A stretch of 64,000 nucleotides of DNA from Ferroplasma sp. (GTDB lineage Archaea; Thermoplasmatota; Thermoplasmata; Thermoplasmatales; Thermoplasmataceae): positions 1 to 64,000 of the forward strand of contig NZ_CP133597.1 in the NCBI RefSeq assembly GCF_031200575.1, read 5' to 3'. Below the pieces are notes generated by a model. That model was not told the origin of the DNA, did not search any database, and was given only the letters and a program-made list of their open reading frames with translations. Of this stretch, positions 2,821 to 51,472 are shown piece by piece. The first letter of the stretch is position 1. Every line of letters begins with the position of its first letter. A program made the position numbers and the translations under genes.

Positions 2821-4176
2821 TTGCTCTGTGATGAAAAAGCAGTTCTTATAAAAAGGCGTACGTTAGGTGAACACCTTACATCTGTAAATATATTTAAAGA
2901 ATATATACTGCCCAAAATTAGGGATAAAATAAATAATTATACATGGGTTGATTTATTCGCTGGTGAAGGCAATTTAATATTACCTATACTGGATTTGGTG
3001 CCTGAAAATAAAAGAATTGAATTCTTTCATCATAACATATTTCTTTTTGAGGTACAAAAAGAAATGGTTGAAAGAGCTATAAAAAATGCAGAATCGTATG
3101 GAATACCAAAATCAATAGCGGAAACAAATATTCAGATAAGAGATACGCTTAAAGAGTATCCTGTACTGAATGTTAAAAAGCCAATTTACCACATAACAAA
3201 TCCGCCATATCTATATATAGGGTATATAGCTAAACATAAGGAAAATTTTAATCAGCTTGATTATTTTGCCAGAAGCTATAAAGGTTTACAAGATCTATAT
3301 CAAGTTGCATTGATGAATGATTTACAGAATGGAATAAATCAAATGGTTTATATAATTCCTTCAAATTTTTTATTTGGTGATTCTGTTTCTAATTTAATCA
3401 GGATGAGTTTTTTACCTTTGTATAAAATAGATAATGCTATTATATTTGAGAAAAAGATCTTTGAAAATACAGGTGTAAATGTAGTAATATGTTTCTTTGA
3501 AAGAACAAATATAAGAAATAGTACTATAAAATTTAAAGCTACAAAAATAAATGGAGAAATAAAAGAAAGAGAATATGTATTATCGCAGAAGAATAATTAT
3601 AGGGCAGGTAGTGAATTTAATGATTATATTAAGGCGCAAAAAAAGAATATGATTAAAATATCCTATTATTTAACTAAAAAGGAGATTGATAATAACAAAG
3701 GGGAAAATAAGGTACTACTATTAAATTCTAAAGAATATAAAAATGGAGAATACACAAAGAAAACATTTTTTGTAAATGATAAGCTTTATGAAAAAATAAT
3801 AAAAAATCCATTATTTATAAGAACTGTTGACACTGGAAGCGAAAATGGAAAATCCGGATTATATTATATAAAAGAAACTTTTGGCACTGATGGGATATTT
3901 GTGGATGGAAATACATATAGAACAAATCCAATACAAGTATTTATTGAGCCATATCTATCTTCGGAGCAAATGAAACAATTGCAATTAACCTTCAACCAAA
4001 AGCTAAACGAACTCAGGGATATAACGGATAGTGAATTTATGACTACATATAAGTATAGTAATAATGGAAAATATACAAGAAAATATCTTGGATTGCTACA
4101 GGCAAAGAAATTGCTTGAAGTAATAGATATAAAAATTAAAATTCCTGAACAAACTCATCAAACAAAATTGCTGTAA
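2821..4176 (+). CDS. DNA adenine-N6 methyltransferase of a type II R-M system
   Basis: The 451-aa product has the S-adenosylmethionine loop VDLFAGEGN (about residues 43-51) and the catalytic NPPY motif (about residue 129), in the order of N6-adenine methylases. The remaining 300 residues would include the target-recognition region. Translation probably starts at TTG 2821, preceded by GGTGAT. Its 3' end overlaps by 41 bp, tail to tail, with the predicted endonuclease on the other strand, the usual arrangement of a restriction-modification pair. It should methylate and so protect the site cut by that enzyme. The recognition sequence cannot be read from the protein. Confidence 0.82.
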   Translation: MLCDEKAVLIKRRTLGEHLTSVNIFKEYILPKIRDKINNYTWVDLFAGEGNLILPILDLVPENKRIEFFHHNIFLFEVQKEMVERAIKNAESYGIPKSIAETNIQIRDTLKEYPVLNVKKPIYHITNPPYLYIGYIAKHKENFNQLDYFARSYKGLQDLYQVALMNDLQNGINQMVYIIPSNFLFGDSVSNLIRMSFLPLYKIDNAIIFEKKIFENTGVNVVICFFERTNIRNSTIKFKATKINGEIKEREYVLSQKNNYRAGSEFNDYIKAQKKNMIKISYYLTKKEIDNNKGENKVLLLNSKEYKNGEYTKKTFFVNDKLYEKIIKNPLFIRTVDTGSENGKSGLYYIKETFGTDGIFVDGNTYRTNPIQVFIEPYLSSEQMKQLQLTFNQKLNELRDITDSEFMTTYKYSNNGKYTRKYLGLLQAKKLLEVIDIKIKIPEQTHQTKLL

Positions 4177-4939
4177 TTATATTTTTACCTTTTCTCTCAT
4201 CTATTTTTCTAATGTAATTCCTGTCAAACCAAACTATCCCATCAAGAATTGCAAAAGAGCATATATTAGGCTCTCTACTATCATTTAAAACATCCAATGC
4301 AACGTTCAGTTGATTAGTTTGTGCACCTCCAGAATCGGTGATAAACTTCGCTTCGCCAAAACAAAATCTCTTACCCTTCCTGAATAAAACGTCCAGCCCC
4401 TTCTTAGTATCTAACAACTTAATGTCAAGTTCGTCAGTAACATATTTCTTAAGTGTTGAGTCGGAACCTTGTAAAAACACCAAATCTTCCTCTCTATAAT
4501 ATTTAAAGTCAGTATAACTTATAAATTTATATCTCTCCTGCACCCACTTCTTAAAAGAATTTCCCATTTGTCTAGTTGCAGATTTTGGTTTACGCATTTC
4601 TTTCAATAAAGAATCCCAATCCATAGATGTTATAGTTTCTCCAAGGCGCTTGATTGTGTCAGGATTATTTTCTATAAGATCACGTCTATATCTGAGCATA
4701 CTTATATAAGGGTCGTCTATTGGGAATCTCTCAAGGCCTAGGAGCTTCTTTATTAACTCTATGTACGACTTAGTTTCTCGAGATGTGTCATAAGCCTTCT
4801 TTATATTATTAATATCTTCAAGCTTTACAGTCCTTTCCTTATTCGATTGGGAAGGATATATAGAAGATAATTTATCAAGGTACTTTTCTCTATTAGCAAT
4901 ATCTTTGCTTTTCTTTACCCAATCTTCCATATTCATCAT
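4136..4939 (-). CDS. Type II restriction endonuclease, PD-(D/E)XK fold
   Basis: A nuclease active site is visible late in this 267-aa protein: Asp183 in KGLDVLF, then Glu196 and Lys198 in FGEAKFI, followed by a TDSGGAQTNQ segment. This D-x(12)-E-x-K pattern, with a GG-Q after it, is typical of several type II enzymes. The first 170 residues are charged and helical and carry no recognisable domain. It is downstream of the winged-helix regulator (20-nt gap, same strand), so the regulator gene leads the operon. Its 3' end overlaps the methylase gene. I call it a restriction enzyme from motif plus pairing; the exact family is not identified. Confidence 0.75.
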   Translation of the reverse strand: MMNMEDWVKKSKDIANREKYLDKLSSIYPSQSNKERTVKLEDINNIKKAYDTSRETKSYIELIKKLLGLERFPIDDPYISMLRYRRDLIENNPDTIKRLGETITSMDWDSLLKEMRKPKSATRQMGNSFKKWVQERYKFISYTDFKYYREEDLVFLQGSDSTLKKYVTDELDIKLLDTKKGLDVLFRKGKRFCFGEAKFITDSGGAQTNQLNVALDVLNDSREPNICSFAILDGIVWFDRNYIRKIDERKGKNIITAILFDEFVQEF

Positions 4940-5952: not shown

Positions 5953-6839
5953 TGGACGAAAAGGAACTAAGGGATTTTAAGAATTTTATGATTGATGAAA
6001 TGCGTTTATCACCCTCCACTGTGAAGGACACATTGAGAAGATTGCCATATATTGAAAATAAATCAAAATCAATGGAGAGGGATGATTTGCAGGAACTGGT
6101 GCGCATAGAATGGAACACCAAGAGCAATAAGACTGCAAATGAGTACATTAAAATAATCAACAGGTGGCTCAGATTCAAGAATGAAAAGCCCCTGAAATAT
6201 TTTAAGGAATACGAATCATTTACAGTAAAGATCTGCACACCGGATGCCAAGGAAAAACTTTTAATTGCAGCTTCCAGGCAGGGACCAAGGGAGAAAGCCA
6301 TATTTTATTTATTGTTTGGCACCGGAGTAAGGCTCGGGGAAGCCGTGAACTTAAAGCTCCAGAATATCAAAAATGACAGGATCTTTGTAACAGGTAAAGG
6401 CCAGAAGGAGAGGGAAATATTCCTTCCTTCAGAATCCAGAAATGCGCTGGATGAATACCTTTTAGTAAGGACTCCTGGGAAAACAGCCTCGGATAAGGAT
6501 TTTCTGTTTACGACAAAAGTGGGAAAGAGAATGTCATACGATTATTTCCGGAATTTATGCAAATTCGTTGCGATGAATGCCGGGATAAAATTCCATCCCC
6601 ACATGGCCAGGCACACATATGCCACGGAGCTTTTGTTGGCTGGAATGGATGTGGCCTTCGTGTCAAAGCTGCTGGGGCACGAAAATCTTTCAGCGACCCA
6701 AAAATACCTGCACCCGAGCCAGCAGGAGGCGATTTACCAGGCTTCAAAAATAAATTTATTTGAAAATCAACATAAAAATAAGTACCAAAATCATAATGAT
6801 TTAGACCATAAGGATAGGTTGGGATTTGGACCCAAGTAG
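5952..6839 (+). CDS. XerA-like tyrosine recombinase, gene end inside tRNA-Cys
   Basis: The 295-aa enzyme has a full catalytic set (numbered from the alternative TTG start at 5949): Arg128 in GTGVRLGEA, Lys150 in the beta-hairpin VTGKGQ, His218 and Arg221 in HPHMARH, His244 in LLGHE and Tyr253 in QKYLH. An N-terminal SAM-like core-binding domain covers residues 1-90. Length fits archaeal XerA and element integrases. The ATG at 5952 overlaps the preceding stop. The last nine codons (from about 6811) lie within the tRNA-Cys gene on the other strand, so the coding end and attachment site coincide. This favours an element integrase over a chromosomal dimer resolvase. Confidence 0.85.
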   Translation: MDEKELRDFKNFMIDEMRLSPSTVKDTLRRLPYIENKSKSMERDDLQELVRIEWNTKSNKTANEYIKIINRWLRFKNEKPLKYFKEYESFTVKICTPDAKEKLLIAASRQGPREKAIFYLLFGTGVRLGEAVNLKLQNIKNDRIFVTGKGQKEREIFLPSESRNALDEYLLVRTPGKTASDKDFLFTTKVGKRMSYDYFRNLCKFVAMNAGIKFHPHMARHTYATELLLAGMDVAFVSKLLGHENLSATQKYLHPSQQEAIYQASKINLFENQHKNKYQNHNDLDHKDRLGFGPK

Positions 6840-6882
6840 ATGAGATCTGCAGTCTCACGCATAGCTTCTCTGCCACCTATCC
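6811..6882 (-). tRNA. tRNA-Cys (GCA), atypical, putative attachment site
   Basis: Read on the minus strand, a cloverleaf is clear: acceptor GGATAGG/CCTATCC with U73, anticodon stem TGAGA/TCTCA around loop CTGCAGA (anticodon GCA), and T stem TTGGG/CCCAA. U73 and GCA are cysteine identity elements. Oddities: the T loop is TCCAAAT, with C in place of the near-invariant U55; the D stem has only three pairs; and the D loop (GAGAAGCTA) has C where G19 is expected. Its AU-rich acceptor differs from the GC-rich acceptors of the His, Lys and Met tRNAs in this window. It may be a diverged functional tRNA, a relic, or a copy modified by integration. CCA is not encoded. Confidence 0.8.
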
Positions 6883-7128: not shown

Positions 7129-8106
7129 ATGGCAGTTCTGGGAGTTGATCTGGGATATGGAGACACAAAACTGGTAACAGAGAACAATAAAAAGAGTAAG
7201 TTCCCATCAAGGTGGTCTCCTGCAGAGGCCAGAGATTGGGGGCTTGGAGGGAATGTTCCTGTACTTTCGATCAAGGGTGGTGATTCTTTCATGTTTGGAG
7301 ATGATGCAACAGGATCAAATATAAGAGAGCCACAGGGAGATGGCAGGCTTACCGATCCCAATGCTATGCAGTTACTTGCGGGTGCATTATGGAAAAGTGG
7401 CATAGGAAAAAAACCCAGAATGCCGATATAGTTCTGTCAAGCGGAACCCAGCTTGGAAGTTTTGACAAAGAAGTAAAAGAAGCGTCCAAACCGCTGGAAG
7501 GTATGGAGATAGAGCTACAGGATGCCTCTGGTGACAAGCAAAAGTTCAAAATATCAAAATTGGTTATGAGACCACAAGGTGTTGGTGCGGTCATATATTT
7601 GCTTAATCAGGGCCTTATAAAGAAACAATATGGAAATGCAGTGATAATAGATATAGGATACAAAACAACAGATATTTTAACAATAAATCTGAGGAATCTG
7701 GAACCCATTACTGCAGAATCTTTCAGCATAGAGGCAGGGGGTAGGAGACGTTGTGTCCGGAATGAGCAAGTCTATCAGCAGGGAAACTGGTTTTGTAGTG
7801 TCAGCTGATGTTGCCCGTGATGCTATAGGAGAGAAGGTAACTTTCAAACAGCAGGAAATAGGCGGAAGTGAGGTGTCTGGGCCGTTACTGGATAGTCTGG
7901 CACAGAAGATTGTTGATGAGATGAGAGAAAATTTAAGAGACAACCTTGAAAGGATAACATCACTGATTCCTGTTGGGGGTGTTTCTATACTTATAGGAGA
8001 CAAACTTGAGCAACTGGCTCCTGGATATCTTGTCAAGGTTCCACCTGAAGACATGCAATTTGCAAATGTTCTTGGTTATTCAATTGCCGCCTCGGAAAAT
8101 AAATAA
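7129..8106 (+). pseudogene. Actin/ParM-like ATPase (Ta0583 family), split by two frameshifts
   Basis: Three consecutive reading frames together give one protein of about 325 residues that lines up with Thermoplasma acidophilum Ta0583 as I remember it: GVDLGYGDTK (phosphate 1), SSGTQLGSFD, VIIDIGYKTTDI (phosphate 2), ETGFVV, ITSLIPVGG (adenosine motif) and a final QFANVLGYS. The frame moves by -1 in an A7 run (7407-7413) and back by +1 in a G5 run (7737-7741). The start at 7129 matches the family; an in-frame ATG at 7060 would add a hydrophobic leader absent from relatives. Ta0583 forms filaments and hydrolyses nucleotide, with an unclear cell role. The breaks may be real, sequence errors, or slippage at A-AAA-AAA. 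Confidence 0.85.
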
Positions 8107-8161
8107 AATAAATATTTTATAGAGTAAAAATTTATTAATAATGAAATACTTAATTATATAG

Positions 8162-8803
8162 ATGACCCGTGTAGGAATATATACTCACGACTTTAAGTTT
8201 TACCATGATATTGTCATGGATTTAAAGAGATGGAATCTGCCCTTTTTCAGCATAACTGACCTTTATGATATACCGTCTGATATAAACGTTATCATGAGCT
8301 CAGTTAATGATTCGTTTACACTTCCTGGACAGATAAAGGCAAGGAATTCACTGGAAGGAATAAGGAAATGCCTGCCAATGCTTTTAAACAGGGATGAATT
8401 CGATAAAATTGTTATAGGAATTGACCCAGGGCCAAGACCTGGAGTTGCCGTGATGGCAGATGGTGTGCTCATGGAGGCATGGGAATGCCCGGTAATAGGC
8501 AATATCAGGGAAAGTGTTCTTCATATTATAGGAGATTACCGCTACCGTTACATCATGATTAAAATTGGAAATGGAGACAGACCAAATCGGGATATTATTA
8601 TCAAACATTTAAAGAATCTCGCCCCTGTTATAATAGTAAATGAGGAGAATACAAGCACCCCACACAAGGTGCACGATAATGCCCTTTCTGCAGCCAGGAT
8701 ATCACTTATTGATGATAGATACGATATATCAAGGACACCGGTAAAATTTAGCAGAAAGAATATCTATGAAAAAGAGTTCACCACCATTCATTCCCTAATT
8801 TAA
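8162..8803 (+). CDS. RuvC/RNase H-fold-like protein, function unknown
   Basis: The C-terminal two thirds of this 213-aa protein look like an RNase H-type nuclease of the RuvC kind: a strand ending in IGIDPGPRPGVAV (Asp88), a late strand with VNEENTST (Glu161/Glu162), and a helix start HDNALSAARI (Asp172), giving D-E-D acidic positions. The first 80 residues form a separate alpha/beta part. RuvC relatives cut Holliday junctions or other branched DNA, but archaea normally use Hjc for that, so this may be another nuclease or a non-catalytic relative. It follows the actin-like gene on the same strand after 55 nt, and a promoter-like TTTATTAATA lies in that gap. Confidence 0.6.
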   Translation: MTRVGIYTHDFKFYHDIVMDLKRWNLPFFSITDLYDIPSDINVIMSSVNDSFTLPGQIKARNSLEGIRKCLPMLLNRDEFDKIVIGIDPGPRPGVAVMADGVLMEAWECPVIGNIRESVLHIIGDYRYRYIMIKIGNGDRPNRDIIIKHLKNLAPVIIVNEENTSTPHKVHDNALSAARISLIDDRYDISRTPVKFSRKNIYEKEFTTIHSLI

Positions 8804-8846
8804 AAGTTATTTCATATATAATTAAATAAAAGATTTTAGACTGTTG

Positions 8847-9689
8847 CTATTTAGTTTTCTGGGCTTTCTGCGTTTTCTTGTTTGATTTGGACCTTTTCCA
8901 CTTTGGTACACGGACTGTATTCCTTCTGCCTGAGGCAACTATCAGGAATATTGCAAATGCAATTGCCACTGCAGCAATGTAGTAAACCCAGTCATAATTG
9001 GGCTTTGCACCATTATAGAATACCACAGATGATTTGCCCTTCAGTGTTATGACTGGATTGTTGGTGGTTACAGTTAGGGTGTCCTTTCCCTTATATATAA
9101 GGGCTGATGGGGCAGTAATATTATCCTTATATGTTGAATTCCCTTTAATTTCATTTATATGGCTAATGCCAACGGCCTGTGATGATGTACCGTGTGTTAC
9201 TGTGTATGTCAGGGTTATATTATATATGGGAACAGGGTCAGTATTTTCAACTGTTGCGTTGAAAATTACCGGTTTACTAACATTTATTGTTGGTATGCTT
9301 TTTGTATAGGTAATTCTATGACCGGTAGAATTAACTGCATAGGCATCAATGTAGCCGTAAATGCCTTCACATTCTGCCGGTGCAGTAACCTGTACCGAAA
9401 ATTTTCCATTTGTGGAATTACTGTAATATGATAGTGGTGAAAGGCCTGTATCATTAACTGCCCCAAGGTATGCAGCCATTGAATAATTGTGATAACCTGA
9501 TGATTCAGTTACGTTAAGGTAGAATGTTTCATTTTCATAAACATAATGCTGTACAGACACGGTGGCTGAGAAAGTAGATGTGGAGGTAGCAGGAGTAGGG
9601 GCGTTCTGCATGCCTGATACAGAGGCTGAGCCTGATAATGCAACAAGGGCGAAAATCACTGAAAACAGTATTATTAATTTATATTTCAT
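8847..9689 (-). CDS. Secreted, membrane-anchored glycoprotein-like partner of AglB
   Basis: The 280-aa product has a signal peptide (about residues 1-23), an extracellular part made of beta-sandwich-like segments with many N-x-S/T sequons, one C-terminal transmembrane helix (about residues 233-251) and a strongly basic cytoplasmic tail. It starts 5 nt after the aglB stop, with the ribosome-binding site AGAGGT overlapping that stop region, so the two genes form an operon. Its extracellular repeats resemble the CARDB/NEW3-like segments in the AglB extension. It may be a glycosylation substrate or an accessory subunit that docks on AglB; neither is shown by sequence alone. Confidence 0.7.
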   Translation of the reverse strand: MKYKLIILFSVIFALVALSGSASVSGMQNAPTPATSTSTFSATVSVQHYVYENETFYLNVTESSGYHNYSMAAYLGAVNDTGLSPLSYYSNSTNGKFSVQVTAPAECEGIYGYIDAYAVNSTGHRITYTKSIPTINVSKPVIFNATVENTDPVPIYNITLTYTVTHGTSSQAVGISHINEIKGNSTYKDNITAPSALIYKGKDTLTVTTNNPVITLKGKSSVVFYNGAKPNYDWVYYIAAVAIAFAIFLIVASGRRNTVRVPKWKRSKSNKKTQKAQKTK

Positions 9690-9694
9690 TCAAT

Positions 9695-12600
9695 TTACCT
9701 CTTTTTTCTTGATCTGATTGAAGATCCTATAATGCCTGCCAGCAATGCCGCTACAATTATACCGATGCCTATATAGATTGTGATAGCCGGATTTGCTGTG
9801 TAATCATTTATTATATGGTTCCCTGAAGATCCTGTTCCAACCGTAGCCGATGGCAGCACAGGTGTAATTGTTTTGTTTTCATAGGTATTTTTACCGTTTA
9901 TTGTGGCATTGGATTCGAAGTTCATGCCAACAGAATGCAATGTTCTCCCATTAATTCCATAGGCATATATATACAGGGTTGCAGACTGCCCGGCATTAAG
10001 CGTTAAATTTGTAACATTTTGGCCATTGTATGTTAGATATGCCATTATATCAAAAGAACTCTTTAATTTTGGGGCGTTTGTTATGTTTACAAATACATTC
10101 AATGCAGTATTGTTCGTGTTCTTAAGTGTTATGGGTATCATATTTATGGTGCCATTCACGGCAGCGTAATCAGAGTATGTGAAATTATAACTTTCTCCAG
10201 AAAGCACATTAATAGTTATATCTCCAACCTTAACGCCGGTGCCGTTAACCTTTGCCATAACCGGCACTGAATTATTACCTGCCGGTGCAACGGGGATCTT
10301 TGTAATTATGATTACGTTCTTAGTTCCACCCACAGGAATTGTTAAGTTGGTCGGATTGAAATTAAGGTCCCATGTACTGTTTCCTGAATAAAGTTGAATT
10401 GTATTGTTTGTATTGCCCTCATTTTCTATGGTCACAGATGTTGTAATGTTCTCACCAACATAGCCTGTAACCGCAGGATCTATCAGCACATACCTGTACA
10501 AATTGACTTTGTGAAGGGTAACATTCTCTGTAAGAGATTTGTTAACAAATAAAGACACAGATCCTGAATAATTAACAGGTATTCCGTTCTGTACTGTTGA
10601 ATTTGTCAGGGTAAACTCATAGGTTCCGTTCACAGGAAGGTATATGCTGCTTGGCTCTGACTGTGCTGTTGTGTACATTGATGGCCCTGTAACTGTTAGG
10701 GTTGTTGGCACAGCTACACTGTTATTGTACCCAGTGAGGGTGACAGGATATGCATGTGATAGATACACATTGAATGTTTTATTAGCAAGAGGACTTAATG
10801 TAACATTTTCAAAGTATGCGTAGTAAGTCCCAGATGATGTATAGTTTGCGTAAATTCCGTAGGTTCCTGGAGTTAGTTTGCTTACAGAATATTGATCTGC
10901 TGAATTAGATGTTGTTGTTGCAACCGTTTTCCCATCCTTTGTTATTGCTATTGTTGCATCAGATACAGTAGATGCGACATTCGGATAGTACATAACTGTT
11001 CCATTCAATGTATCGTACACTTCTGTGGGTATGAGGGAGATATTGAAAGCATCAGTTGCTGATGATGGTGTCACATTCTGATCTGTGGCATTCACATATG
11101 TGTATGCGCCTGTGGAATTTGTGAAATTGCCAGCAGATGTTATGATATAATTCATCTTTGGCAGGACAATTGTCAAATTCTTTGCAGAGCTTGTTGTTAT
11201 TTCCTTTGTCCCATTCCTTATATGGTATGAAGCTGATATTTCCAGATTGTTTGTAATACTAAGCCTGTAACCTGTTACATATGAAGGTATTACCGTCATA
11301 TTTTTTACCAGATCTACTGTTGTCATGTTTGCCATGGTGGAGTTATAAGAGAACAATGTGTATACGCCAGCTTTTAGATGGTCCAGCCCAACATTTACTC
11401 CGGTGGAATTGAATAGGGTGCTGGCGGAATTTGTAATTTTGGTTGTGTTTACCTTCAGTGTAAAGTAAAGGTCGGTATTTTTCACAAATTTCTGTGATAG
11501 TGAATTGTTGACCACTGTTCCAGTCAAAACTGGAACTATGTATGCACTGCTATTTGAGACGCTGGTGTAATAAACTCCCTCTGCTATTTCTCCAGTGACG
11601 ACGCCGTCTGTCATATTGAGTGTATATTTGTTGTACAGCCCGGTAAGTGTTATGGTTCCATTATATTTTGCAAGTTTTGAGTCATTATTTAATGTTACCG
11701 AAACAGATACCATCTTCTGTGTTACATTGTATACAGGATCCGTAACATGATCTGCTGTAGTATTATAATAGAACGGTGACATTATTTCCACTGTACTGCT
11801 GTTATATGCATAGATCGTTGCTGACCCGCCGTTTAATTCAGAGTAATAGTAAGGAGCCTTGGTGGTCGTATTGTATGCTATAAGTATTCCCTGTGTTACA
11901 TACCCAAGGGTATTGTTTGTTGAAGTGGATATTTTATGCGAATAGCTATAGCTAAGGTTTAATACAATGTTATGAACGCTACTGGAAATTGACTGGTTGA
12001 ATCCTGCCATAGTTTTCCCATTGTATGTTCCGGTTCCAGAAATAGAATAGCTTCCGGAAGGTAGGTATATACTGTATGGCCTGCTTGAATTTGAATAGCT
12101 ATGATAAAGGAATGCACTGGAATCTGTAGCCAGTATCTCATAATGTCCACTGTAATACTTTGCGCCTGTCATGGTAGAGGTTATGTTGTATTTATATGAC
12201 GTTGTGTAGGTTATATTCTGCTCCATGTTGCCCGTAACATTTAAGGTTTGGATATAGGACCCACTTGATGTGTTAGAATATATAGTGTACACTCCGTAGG
12301 GCATATTCAAATAATAGAATCCAGTAGCATTGGCTGTCGTATTGTAATAATCAGAAGCTATTCCATTGAAGTAGAATGTAACCTTTGCATTGGGTGAGGC
12401 CATTCCTGTAACATTTGCACTCAGTTCTGGTGTCATAGTAACAGACTTTGTATTGCCCCATCCAGTTACTGTAACAGATGATTTGTCCTCTGTGCCATTA
12501 GCCTTTATAGTGATATTATAGGTTCCTGGATAAACACCAAAATCAGCATTGCCACTGCTGGACGTCACACCCGATAGTTTATAATTACCTGAGGTGCCAT

Positions 12601-20907: not shown

Positions 20908-22002
20908 ATGAATGAGCTGGAATTAATAAATAAAATGAACAGGGGGCTTTCCTATATAGGTATGGCTATATCTGGAATAGCATTCCTGTTTACACTGCCT
21001 TTTCTATTTAAGGATTTCAGTACCATACCGGGGATGTCCGGCCTTTATTTTTACCTGGATGTAACAATCACGCCTTCCATGGCATATTCTTTCATGGCAC
21101 TCGGAATAATATTAATTGTAATTTCATTTTCACCATTGTTTTATGATAAAATAAAATCCTCCAGCTTTGATAAAACGAATAATACCTACTATTTTTCCGC
21201 GCTTTCTGTTTACATAGCAATCCTGGTATTTTCCTCCGTGCTTGTGGAAATATTCGATCCATCCATTGCCGTTAGTCCAGTTTCCTCTATGCCACTGGGA
21301 AAGCAGAATTTTATCTATATGATGGGATCAGTATTTCAGGTGCTTATTTTTGAACTGGTGCCCCTGTCGATTCTTATTATTATATTTTTAGCCATCTCAA
21401 AACAGTTGAAAATATCATCCTTTCTGGAGCCATATAACCACATAAAACGGTTCACCGTGCTATTTATGCTTATTGCCGCAGCAGTTGCAGTTCTGATTAC
21501 AGATTATAATATTTATAATTCTATTCTTATATATGTATCAACACTGGCCCTCAGCTTCATATACATAAGATACGGCTTTTTACGATCCATGCTGGCCAGT
21601 TTTGTATCCTCATATGTGGATTTTACACTGACGGCTTTCAGCGGAAATGCAATAATTACATCGGCTACTTCTGTATTCCTTTTCATATGGGCATTTGCAG
21701 GCCTCTATAGTTTTACATTTTACATGGTACAGAGGCAGAAAAGCGGAAATAGCAATAACAGCAATGAGAATAAAAATAATGAGGAAGCACCTGAACCTGA
21801 AAATAAGGCTACACCTGAGCCAAGGGTGCCACCGGACGAACTGTGGATCAGGAGTGCATGTCCAAACTGCGGGAATGTGGAATACAAAGTCAATGATGAT
21901 ATGTCCCTTGAGTGCACAAAGTGTGGCCAGAAGCTGGACAGCGACTATACTGGTCCGTATAATATAATCATAAGCAACGTCCTGGGCAGAAGGCAGCCAT
22001 AA
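20908..22002 (+). CDS. Polytopic membrane protein with C-terminal zinc ribbon
   Basis: Roughly eight membrane helices fill residues 15-280 of this 364-aa protein, followed by a charged, low-complexity linker (Asn/Glu/Pro-rich) and a cytoplasmic zinc ribbon with CPNCG and CTKCG. I do not recognise the family. The ATG at 20908 is taken as start; a TTG at 20902 is also in frame. It is closely spaced behind the AlaX-like gene. A membrane sensor or an assembly factor with the ribbon as an interaction module is possible, but there is no direct evidence. Confidence 0.6.
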   Translation: MNELELINKMNRGLSYIGMAISGIAFLFTLPFLFKDFSTIPGMSGLYFYLDVTITPSMAYSFMALGIILIVISFSPLFYDKIKSSSFDKTNNTYYFSALSVYIAILVFSSVLVEIFDPSIAVSPVSSMPLGKQNFIYMMGSVFQVLIFELVPLSILIIIFLAISKQLKISSFLEPYNHIKRFTVLFMLIAAAVAVLITDYNIYNSILIYVSTLALSFIYIRYGFLRSMLASFVSSYVDFTLTAFSGNAIITSATSVFLFIWAFAGLYSFTFYMVQRQKSGNSNNSNENKNNEEAPEPENKATPEPRVPPDELWIRSACPNCGNVEYKVNDDMSLECTKCGQKLDSDYTGPYNIIISNVLGRRQP

Positions 22003-40408: not shown

Positions 40409-40555
40409 GGAATATAATTGGAAAAGATATTAAATTTTTCATGGCAGTTTTTCCATACAACTTTCAAAAAACTAAAACTTTAAAATACTATTTAGTAATA
40501 TCATTACACAACAAAAGTTATATGTTTCAAAGAAATATAGCTGACTACATATTGT

Positions 40556-40629
40556 GGGTCCGTAGCTCAGCTAGGTAGAGCGTCTGGCTTTTAACCAGGC
40601 GGTCAGGGGTTCAAACCCCCTCGGACCCG
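40556..40629 (+). tRNA. tRNA-Lys (TTT)
   Basis: Acceptor GGGTCCG pairs with CGGACCC, with G73. The anticodon stem TCTGG/CCAGG (allowing G-U) encloses CTTTTAA (anticodon TTT), and the T arm GGGG-TTCAAAC-CCCC is canonical. It ends only 13 nt before the rpoH start, so tRNA and RNA polymerase genes may share a transcript. Confidence 0.95.
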
Positions 40630-40642
40630 TTTAGGTGAAAAT

Positions 40643-40903
40643 ATGAGCAAGTTCAATGTGCTAGAGCACGAAATTGTGCCAGAACACCATCTGGTTCCAG
40701 TGGAAGAGGAGGAAAGCGTTTTAAGCAGGCTTAATGTGACTAAGGACGATCTGCCTAAAATCGGTATAAATGATCCAACTATCAAGGCCTTGGAGGAAAT
40801 CCATGGAAAATTAGAGCCGGGAAGAATAATTAAAATTATCCGGAAGAGCCCTACAGCAGGGTATTATGAGTATTATAGAGTTATTGTAAAGAGTGTGATA
40901 TAA
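40643..40903 (+). CDS. rpoH: RNA polymerase subunit H (Rpb5-like)
   Basis: RpoH is the archaeal counterpart of the Rpb5 C-terminal domain. The 86-aa protein shows HEIVPEHHLVPVEEEESVL near the start, LPKIGINDPTIKALEE in the middle and GRIIKIIRKSPTAGYYEYYRVIV at the end, all diagnostic. AGGTGAAAAT precedes the ATG. rpoB begins one base after the rpoH stop. It opens the RNA polymerase operon. Confidence 0.97.
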   Translation: MSKFNVLEHEIVPEHHLVPVEEEESVLSRLNVTKDDLPKIGINDPTIKALEEIHGKLEPGRIIKIIRKSPTAGYYEYYRVIVKSVI

Positions 40904-43900
40904 ATGAATCCTATTTTAGATGCGTTTTTTAAATCAGAGAGTGTTGTTAATTACCAGATAGATTCAATGAATTATTTTTATGCATCCAAAAATAACCCGG
41001 ACAGCATAATGCAGCAAATTGTAGATGAAACAAAAATATCTGACGACGCTACACCCGGAGTTATCGAGCTTGACCCATCAAAAACAAGAGGGAAGGACAT
41101 AAAGATATATTTTGGAAGGGACCGGGAAAATGGTAAGGCCACAGGAGACCCCACAATATGGGTAGAAAAACCGGAAATAAAGGAAGCTTCCGGTGCATCA
41201 AACCAGATCACCCCCCAGGAAGCAAGGCTCAGGGACCTGAACTACATGGCACCGATTATATTGCGGCTCCGCATAGTGGAGGACGGAATAGAGAGGGATG
41301 CCAGCACCATAAAAATCGGGGAAATACCTGTTATGGTAAGATCAAAAATATGCACACTTTCAGAACAGAATCTTGACCTGTATATTGAAAAGAATAATGG
41401 CCCCATTGATGAAACTAGGGAGGAAAAACTCAGATATGTGGATGAGGACCCTACAGACCCTGGAGGTTATTTTATTATAGGAGGTTCGGAGAGGGTTATT
41501 GTCTCCCTTGAAGATCTGGCACCAAATAAAATCCTTGTTGAATATGAGGAGAAATATGACTCCAGGCTTGAAGTTGCAAAAATATTTTCACAGAAAAGTG
41601 GTTTCAGGGCACTTATATCACTGGAGAAGGGCAGCGATGGAATCATAAACGTATCTATTCCAACAGTTGCAGGGACCGTTCCTCTGGTGATACTGATGAA
41701 GGCCCTGGGGATAGACAAAGATGTAGATGTCCATGATGCCATATTTTCAGATCCGCGCATGGATCCTTTAATTTATGCTAACATTGAAGATTCCAAGAAT
41801 CCAAAGGTGTTGCCACCCAACGGCGTCAATAACAGTGAGGATGCACTTTCATACCTTGAAAAAAGATTTGCAGCAGGTCAGGCAAAGGAATTCAGGGATA
41901 AGAAAATTACACAGATGCTTGATAGGGCACTTTTACCGCATCTTGGAGATGAGGTCTCAGACAGATTGAAGAAGGCCATATACCTGGGAAGGATGGCAAG
42001 GTCACTTCTTGAACTTAACCTTGGCATGAGGCACGTGGACGATAAGGATCATTATGCAAATAAAAGAATAAAACTGTCAGGGGATCTTCTTGATGAACTT
42101 TTCAGAAATGCTTTCCAGTCAGTAATGAAGGATTTAAAATACCAGCTGGAAAAGACATACAATAAGAAAAGAGGCATAAGACTCAGGCCAGCTGTTAGGC
42201 AGGATTTGCTTACCCAGAAAATTCTGCATTCAATGGCAACAGGAAACTGGATAGGTGGACGTACGGGAGTTTCACAGCTTCTTGACAGGACTTCCAATAT
42301 GTCAACTTTAAGCCATCTTAGAAGAATTATCTCACCACTGACAAGATCTCAGCCACATTTTGAGGCAAGGGATCTCCACCCAACACAGTGGGGTAGAATA
42401 TGCCCCAACGAGACACCTGAAGGCCAGAACTGCGGACTGGTAAAAAATGCATCTCTAATTATTAATGTAACACAGGGAATTGACCCGGACATAGTTCTTG
42501 AAGAGCTCAGGGGAATGAATATATACGATGTAACAAAGGAGGAGGCATCCGGGAGGGTGTACCTTAATGGGGATTTCATAGGATACCATGATGACCCGGC
42601 AATACTTGCAGAGACTGTAAGAAATCTAAGAAGGTCGGGAAAACTATCAAACGAGGTCAATGTCAAATTTGATTCAAACACTAACGAGGTAATAATAAAC
42701 TGTGACCGTGGAAGGTTGAGGAGGCCATTATTTGTTGTACGTGATGGCAAAACCGTTCTCAATGAAGAAATGCTTGAAAAACTACGTATGGGAGAGTATA
42801 CTGTAAATGACCTTATTTCGGAGGGAGCAATAGAATGGCTGGATGCAGAGGAGGAGGAAAACGCATATATTTCGGTATTCCCATTTGAATTCCCTGAAAA
42901 CTGCCCGCACTGCGGCAAGGTGCTTTACAGGAATAATGTAACATGGGTAAATCCGGGGTCGGATGATATTGTCCTTGAATGCGATGAATGCCATTCGCAT
43001 TTCAAGGGAATCAATCAGATTTCAAAGGATCATACACACTGTGAAATAGATGCATCCATGATACTTGGGGTTGTGGCATCGCTTATTCCCTATCCTGAAC
43101 ATAACTCATCGCCCAGGATTACCATTGCTTCTGCAATGATAAAACAGTCAATTGGAATTCCACAGGCAAATTTCAGAATAAGGACAGATACCAGAGGGCA
43201 TCTGCTTCACTACCCACAGATACCACTTGTTACAACAAAGGTTATGGATTTCATAAGGTACAGGAGAAAGCCTGCAGGCCAGAACTTCGTCGTTGCAATA
43301 GTATCATACCACGGATACAACATGCAGGATGCAATTATAATGAATAAGGCATCCATAGAGAGAGGGCTTGGAAGAAGCTCATTCTTCAGGACCTATACAG
43401 CAGAGGAGAGAAGATATCCTGGAGGACAGGAGGACAGATTCGAGATTCCAAGCCATGATGTCCTTGGGGCAAGAGCAGAAGATTATTACAAGAATCTTGA
43501 TGAAAATGGTGTCATATTCCCTGAATCAAAGGTCGAGGGTTCAGATGTACTTGTGGGAAAAACATCCCCACCAAGATTCCTTGAGGAGGATAATGCGGAT
43601 AAGCTCGGACCCTTAAGAAGGAGGGAATCATCGGTAACAGTCAGGCCCACAGAATCCGGATATGTTGATAATGTATTTCTCACAGTATCTGAGAGCAATA
43701 GCAGGATAATCAAGGTTAAGGTCAGGAGTGACAGGATACCCCAGCCAGGTGATAAATTTGCATCAAGGCATGGACAGAAGGGGGTTATAGGACATGTTGT
43801 ACCTCAGGAGGATATGCCCTTCAATGAGGATGGAATCATACCTGATTTGCTGTTCAATCCGCATTCAGTACCGTCAAGAATGACACTGGGCCATGTCCTT

Positions 43901-49221: not shown

Positions 49222-50967
49222 TTATTTCTGACCTGCAGTGGACACATCCTCCTCGGGTATGTACTGTGTTCCAGAGTCTATTATATCCCTTATCTCATCA
49301 GTCTTATATCCAGATCTTATGGATATCAGATAGAATATTATGGCAACTATTATTACAACCACGAAATCATAGGGGTATGGTATTGTATTTGTCCCACCGT
49401 AGTCTCCTTCGCCCAGATATGATAGGAGCGTAAGCACCAGTATGAATGCAGGGACCCACCAGCCGGCCTTTATATTAACTTTCGTAAATACATTTTCAAC
49501 TTTATGGGATGCCAGTATTATAAGGTATATAACTATTCCAAGGAATATGGCTATTGCAAGGTAGGGTATTGTTGGCCATCCTGACCAGTAGACAATCAGC
49601 GTTGCACCTACAAATGCTATGGGTGCAAGTATTTTTGCATAGGGAAGGGTAAATGGCCTTTTTAGCTCATCAGCCTCCTTCCTGAACACCATAAGGGCAG
49701 AACCTCCAACAATATATGTGAATGCAGTTGCGCCTGTTATAAGACTTACCAGTGCATACCAGCTGGGGAATGGAGCCAGGAATATCAATCCTATGATTAC
49801 AGAAATTATAATGGGCAGAACCGGAACCCTTGTTTTCTTGCTAACGTAGGAAAGCTGTTTTGGGAAGTACCCAATTTCGGATAACCCGAAGAGGGTTCTT
49901 GTGGATGTTCCTGCATAGACATTAAGCGTTCCTGCTGGTGATACGTAAGCATCGGCATATAGCACATATGTCAGCACAACAAGTGCGAATATCCCGGATG
50001 TTTTTGCCAGAAATGCAAATGGTGCGGCTACAACTCCGGATGCATATGCTGACGGGGAGCTTGATACAAGTCCAAACCAGCCTCCCGCTGCAGCAAGTTT
50101 AGTAGGGTTTATAGCCCCGATGAAGACCACCTGAAGCAGAACATATACAACTATTCCAGTTAACACCGAAAATACTGTGGCACGGGGTATTGATTTCTGA
50201 GGTGTTTTCGCCTCGCCTCCGTAATCCAGAGCCTGCCTGAATCCCAGAAATGAGAACACTATACCATCAGTAGACACGGCCTCGAATATTGTTGCAGTAT
50301 TGTTTCCTGGAAGGAAACCACCCAGAGCAGGAGTGGTGAAATTGGGTGTGTGGAATACCAGGAATGCAAGCATAACAATGGTTATGGACGGAATTATAAG
50401 TTTCCACCACGTCATTCCTGTATTTGTCTTTCCCATGATCCTGACACCTGCGTAGTTCAGTGCGAAGAAGGCAACTATGAGTATCCCTGCAAGTACTATT
50501 CCCAGGCCCGTTAGAAGTGCAACTGTTGAAGAGGGGTCCAGTGGATTTGGAGCACTGTAAGATAAACCCTTCACATATGAACTTGCGTAGGTTATTACAG
50601 CCTCTGCCTCTACTGCGGGAACGGATACAGCTGAAAGGAAATATGTCCATCCGAAGAATAGCCCCGCAACCCCTCCATGGGAGTAATGACCGTACCTACT
50701 AATTGCACCGGTTCTCGGTATCATACCACCAAGCTCAGCATAAACCAGAGCTATGAATAAAACAAGCACACCACCTATAAGCCACGAGAGTATAGCGGCA
50801 GGCCCAGTTGTTGCTGCTGAAGCAGCTGCTGCGAACAACCATCCTGATCCGATTATCCCGCCGAGACTCAAAAAATAGAGATCCCATGTGGTTAAAGCCT
50901 TTTTTAATTTTCTGTCCTAGCTTTTACTATTAGCTATAACATCTTTTTCTGATTCAAAATCAGCCAT
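49222..50967 (-). pseudogene. APC amino acid permease with in-frame amber codon near the N-terminus
   Basis: The coding frame begins at ATG 50967 (MADFESEKDVIANSKS), hits TAG at 50917-50919, and then continues without interruption as DRKLKKALTTWDLYFLSLGG and IIGSGWLFAAA to the stop at 49222. Helix 1 with its LGGIIGSG motif, the helix 6 region (FSFLGFRQALDYGGEAKTPQKS) and about 12-14 helices identify an APC permease. A TATA-like stretch about 25 nt before ATG 50967 supports that start. The only downstream in-frame start, TTG 50871, would remove most of the first helix. It is either a nonsense mutant, a read-through gene, or a base error. Confidence 0.8.
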
Positions 50968-50983
50968 ATGTGAATATATAGCA

Positions 50984-50998
50984 GATATATTTAAATTT
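50984..50998 (-). promoter_or_regulatory. TATA region of the APC permease gene
   Basis: On the minus strand AAATTTAAATATATC lies about 25 nt before the ATG at 50967, the spacing of a leaderless archaeal promoter. This is why the upstream ATG, and not the later TTG, is taken as the original start. Confidence 0.5.
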
Positions 50999-51139
50999 TT
51001 CTTAACAGATATCAGATATATACGTAGTAAAGTATGTATTTCACGAAATTTTTTCATAAATCTATTTTCTGATATGCCTAGAAAACCTGTTCATAATTGA
51101 TTATATTTATATGAGTGGATATGATTATGTAGTATACAT

Positions 51140-51472
51140 ATGGTTGATAAAGAAGATGACAATGGAGAAAATATTACGAGGGTTATTACGCCCAATAAGA
51201 GAAAGGGAGAGATATACGGCATAGTTGAAAAATTATCCGGGGCCTCCAGGCTAACAGTTATGTGCGAAGATGGTTCCACAAGAAACTGCAGAATACCGGG
51301 AAAAATGAAAAAAAGAATGTGGATAAGGGAGGGTGACCTTGTCATAGTAAAGCCCTGGGATTTCCAGGATGAAAAGGGCGATATAGTATATAGATATACC
51401 AGAACCCAGGCAATGTACCTGAGCAGGAACAGGATGCTGCCGGAAATAATAGATGTATTCAATGAACGATAA
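51140..51472 (+). CDS. eif1A: Translation initiation factor aIF1A
   Basis: The 110-aa protein has a short charged N-terminal tail and one OB fold: EIYGIVEKLSGASRLTVMCEDG, RNCRIPGKMKKRMWIREGDLVIV and a C-terminal RYTRTQAMYL. It binds the ribosomal A site during initiation. TATA-like TTATATTTATA is about 30 nt upstream. The RIO1 kinase gene starts within the last codons of this gene, and the KH protein Dim2 follows, a well-known archaeal run for initiation and 16S rRNA maturation. Confidence 0.96.
   Translation: MVDKEDDNGENITRVITPNKRKGEIYGIVEKLSGASRLTVMCEDGSTRNCRIPGKMKKRMWIREGDLVIVKPWDFQDEKGDIVYRYTRTQAMYLSRNRMLPEIIDVFNER

Follow-up and report, generated by a model that had tools for sequence, protein, structure and literature searches.

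A probable recent pseudogene of a Ta0583-type actin, spread over three frames, in a Ferroplasma genome

An actin locus in three successive frames

The window, a stretch of 64,000 bases, is the start of a single-contig genome of 1,859,113 bases (99.33% complete) from Ferroplasma, an acid-loving archaeon. Translations, Pfam domains and structure matches identified a Ta0583-type actin (ALP_N followed by MreB-like_C) at 7129-8106, spread over three successive frames of the plus strand, and thereby bore out the original prediction made from the sequence. Frame 1 (7129-7431) contains the start and the N-terminal 95 codons, followed by an out-of-frame tail that ends in a stop codon at 7429-7431; it covers ALP_N positions 1-90 and matches residues 21-114 of the Ta0583 chain 2fsj (E = 9e-29). 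The middle of the actin lies in frame 2 (7413-7736), within a segment (7389-7808) that covers ALP_N 91-148 and MreB-like_C 1-33 and matches 2fsj 120-225 (E = 2.3e-31). The C-terminal part is found in frame 3 (7738-8106), which matches 2fsj 225-343 (E = 8.5e-41), with MreB-like_C 38-122 located in 7753-8106. Since the pieces abut along one protein, the three-frame match is not due to chance, and the high protein similarity expected on both sides of each shift is indeed seen in these abutting matches. None of the three conserved stretches contains an internal stop.

Both domains (PF17989 and PF21522) were collinear across the three frames and scored above their curated cut-offs, as in Ta0583-type archaeal actins. 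Ta0583 of Thermoplasma acidophilum (2fsj, 2fsk, 2fsn) has the same two Pfam domains, and the three pieces align with it end to end. In contrast to Ta0583, the window copy shifts frame at two points and carries changes at otherwise invariant sites, including the glycine-rich motif GGG[SA] near the C-terminus, which we take to be linked to nucleotide binding. This motif reads GGVS in the window, whereas the glycine is present in 29/29 other homologs. By descent the window actin belongs to the Ta0583-type family, but probably not as a working member. A search with PF17989 (ALP_N) did not reveal a second actin copy in the same genome that might serve as a backup. Directly upstream, a 296-residue tyrosine recombinase (PF00589; 5949-6882) overlaps at its 3' end a tRNA-Cys on the opposite strand (6811-6882), which may mark an integration site. 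Further upstream, a Tsp45I-type restriction enzyme (4136-4939, minus strand) adjoins an N6 DNA methylase (2821-4176, plus strand), and the two (2821-4939) are likely to form a restriction-modification pair.

The two break sites and the actin in related genomes

The closest intact copy was found in G063 (locus L045 of MAG TL1-4.bin50), which is 96% identical to the window over the locus and has one open frame through both break sites. The first break (7407-7413, plus strand) is a run of seven A, one fewer than the eight of G063. At the second (7736-7741, plus strand), an A followed by five G, the window has one base more: G063 reads GAGGC-GGGGG and the window GAGGCAGGGGG, that is, C and then G5 in G063, and C, A and then G5 in the window. 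The frame, open in the intact orthologs, is interrupted here by two single-base indels of opposite sign, as in a pseudogene. Both runs were correctly placed in the original prediction (A7 at 7407-7413, G5 at 7737-7741), although the extra base at the second need not come from the G run itself. The simplest single event at that site would be the gain of one A beside an unchanged G5, rather than expansion of the G run; growth from G4 to G5 would require an ancestral GCA at this point. Apart from G063, every homolog aligned at the first site lacks a long run of A, and in none of these homologs was the frame broken at that position.

The comparison with close strains proposed in the original prediction was carried out as a DNA search of 10 genomes of the genus, including the window's own. 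It revealed an intact actin in four of them, namely G063, G009, G026 (F. acidarmanus Fer1) and G052, and a broken one in two, the window's genome (G000) and G040. The copies in G009 and G026 are open over 327 codons. The orthologs in G063, G009 and G026 are the same gene in the same place, beside the gene at 8162-8803, and differ from the window copy in having one open frame; the G063 protein is 97% identical to that of the window over comparable residues. No actin was found in G060 by DNA and protein searches, or in G061, G062 and G064 (80, 84 and 91% complete) by the DNA search. In G062, the tRNA-Cys and the gene matching 8162-8803 lie 126 bases apart, without an actin between them. What is left in G040 is a C-terminal fragment of about 54 codons interrupted by a stop, and the region around it is collinear with the sequence flanking the intact actin that G052 carries at another locus; since only this stop-containing remnant is kept, actin is dispensable there. 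As judged from these gene contents, the actin has been lost more than once within the genus.

When 61 genomes of the family were searched at the protein level with the C-terminal third of the actin, 34 gave a match, a count that includes the window, the G040 remnant and a broken copy in G007. The G007 copy was left out of the tally of independent losses, as its assembly is 50% complete and looks error-rich. One further actin, on a 6.3-kb contig binned in another genus (L054, G035:C289), is 70% identical to that of the window in the C-terminal third, closer than those of its own genus mates, which points to a misbinned Ferroplasma contig or to transfer. An actin-like ATPase has been reported in Ferroplasma and Acidiplasma, but not in Picrophilus, in the accessible portion of PMC10354927. 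That portion makes no mention of a broken copy; our literature check for this pseudogene was not exhaustive.

Over an alignment of 46,926 bases, identity between the window and G063 was 89.9%, and 17 of 453 windows of 400 bases reached at least 97%. Twelve of these formed one tract starting at 7470. Per 100 bases, identity was 95-100% from about 7413 to 9000, and the profile delimits a tract at 7413-9020 with approximately 98% identity to G063, where the background is about 90%; its left edge falls next to the A7 run, somewhere from 7398 to about 7440. The coincidence of this identity step with the first break suggests genetic exchange or recombination; exchange across Ferroplasma species was reportedly described by Eppley and co-workers in 2007. 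The outgroup sites (G009) do not decide the direction of recombination. The G063 sequence comes from a MAG contig of low coverage (6.5x), and its tract could be a chimera derived from a strain of the window's species. Whether exchange or chimera, an intact frame in a sequence 98% identical to the 3' part implies that the breaks are young. The remaining high-identity windows (21,170-21,770 and 40,470-40,970; 97-99% versus the 90% background) are separate candidates for interspecies exchange; the latter overlaps a tRNA-Lys (40555-40630), and part of its identity may be plain tRNA conservation.

Amino-acid changes and selection

The frame outside the two sites had been described as well conserved, which is true on average but masks changes at invariant residues. 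In the 3' part, the window and G063 were 98% identical, with five amino-acid and ten silent codon differences. Frame 2 carries L>P at codon 122, A>V at codon 155 (GVGAA) and V>I at codon 183; frame 3 carries P>S at codon 225 and G>V at codon 285 (GGGS to GGVS). All five amino-acid states of the window were absent from the other homologs and are window-derived, and four of them (A155, V183, P225 and G285) fall at columns invariant in 29/29 other homologs. The first alignment, on which the pairwise control below also rests, comprised 27 of the 29, as L006 and L028 had been dropped by too narrow a start motif; the position check was repeated with both and gave the same result. Three weak or late protein-search matches (G017, G034 and the second G008 copy) were in no alignment.

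Between the window and G063, 4/9 differences were at otherwise invariant columns. In a control of 43 pairs of intact homologs, which are mutually non-independent, this applied to 3/1,130 differences, and the three pairs concerned all share L029, with one private change of that kind. Under random missense 25% of changes would be expected at invariant columns; four of five is no fewer than this, so purifying selection is not visible in the 3' part. As a counter-result, the intact long-branch homologs L005 and L025 had 5 and 6 private changes at invariant columns among 103 and 108 differences, respectively, to their nearest relatives. The N-terminal part of the actin differed from G063 in 35 codons, 31 of them silent, that is, a ratio of non-synonymous to synonymous differences (N:S) of 4:31. 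Within the tract, N:S was 5:10 for the actin and 1:8 for the neighbouring gene, although these counts are small. The ratio for the tract actin did not differ significantly from that of the N-terminal part (Fisher p = 0.11) or from that of the tract's neighbouring coding sequence (1:10; p = 0.20). With G009 as the outgroup, the actin part of the tract had nine window-derived versus three G063-derived sites, and the next gene four versus five. Relaxed purifying selection in the window lineage, as in a pseudogene, was therefore strongly indicated at the invariant sites and not significant by the N:S ratio alone.

Explanations for the broken frame

Taken as a whole, these data indicate that the actin at 7129-8106 is very probably a real, recently inactivated pseudogene of the Ta0583-type, ParM-like actin of Thermoplasmatales. 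The original prediction leaned towards recent damage or base errors, and it is real damage that is favoured. Base-callers often miscount homopolymer runs, and if errors of this kind had occurred at both sites, the actin would be intact in the cell. The first break does sit in an A run, and the G007 copy, from an assembly that is 50% complete, is broken in several places as expected of error-rich sequence. However, the genome is one contig at 99.33% completeness, the second break is not a plain lengthening of the G run, and run-length errors would not produce missense changes at invariant residues. Furthermore, when the 256 frames from stretches of G063, G009 and G062 that match the window were checked one by one, the actin was the only convincing gene split over two frames, despite 53 comparable homopolymers (at least seven A or T, or at least five G or C) in 48,398 bases of conserved frame. 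A second flagged frame (L056, 114 amino acids, window 50879-51221) was ambiguous, lies between larger ORFs and is probably not a gene. In a 2056-residue ORF, two single-base indels relative to G063 cancel within six bases (about 11978-11984), which may be an alignment effect. That two errors should fall in the same gene and none in any other would be a coincidence; base errors alone appear to explain the data poorly, and we regard an intact gene as unlikely. The retention of the pieces as separate short proteins, a split actin, has next to no chance of being correct: every frame is open across its conserved stretch, but two of the three pieces carry invariant-site changes, the cuts are single-base indels within the fold and no split gene was seen in relatives apart from decayed or error-rich copies.

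Slippage had also been left open, on the grounds of the A-AAA-AAA heptamer, which we confirmed to be canonical and in the zero frame. In this reading, a -1 slip at the heptamer, made by the ribosome or during transcription of the A run, would combine with a second, +1 event downstream to yield some full-length actin. The 100 nt after the A7 run folded better than all but 1/200 shuffles (z = -2.62); the same stretch of the intact G063 gene gave z = -0.84, and the best value among 36 windows scanned along the gene (60 shuffles each) was -2.0. The second break had no fold signal (z = -0.41), and we know of no +1 motif of its form. Neither site is conserved, the A7 run is not a frame break in any aligned homolog, and the aligned homologs and fold scores gave neither a conserved shift site nor a stimulatory structure of the kind that marks programmed -1 frameshifting. 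A full-length product would require two independent shifts of opposite sign, and its GGGS motif would have V in place of G, alongside three more changes at invariant residues. The archaeal precedent for programmed -1 frameshifting is fucA1 of Saccharolobus (Sulfolobus) solfataricus, which, according to the accessible part of PMC8211752, has a slippery heptamer in an A run (A-AAA-AAT) and full-length relatives that differ in that run, as at the window actin. In fucA1 a single shift, a conserved context and a studied product are found, in contrast to the two opposite shifts, lack of conservation and damaged residues of the window actin. Programmed slippage is accordingly highly improbable. There is a very slim chance that a recombination junction at the A7 run brought in slippage at this point and that the locus is a young, population-specific recoded gene from which a certain amount of hybrid actin is still made; if so, it would be the second archaeal chromosomal recoding case after fucA1.

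With the frame broken by the two opposite single-base indels, translation from 7129 would give 100 residues lacking the rest of the nucleotide-binding fold. Missense changes at family-invariant residues have accumulated, either once function was lost or at the same time. The last two thirds of the actin and the next gene may be a tract that two Ferroplasma species exchanged recently or that was inherited from a closely related strain, and the left edge of this tract lies at the first break. The locus looks like a commonplace pseudogene belonging to a known family, not like a novel mode of decoding. The much discussed cytoskeletal actin of the wall-less Thermoplasmatales can, on this evidence, probably be lost recently and repeatedly in one genus, and such repeated recent loss would mean that the genus can do without it. 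A living strain that lacks actin would be a natural knockout in which to ask what its role is.
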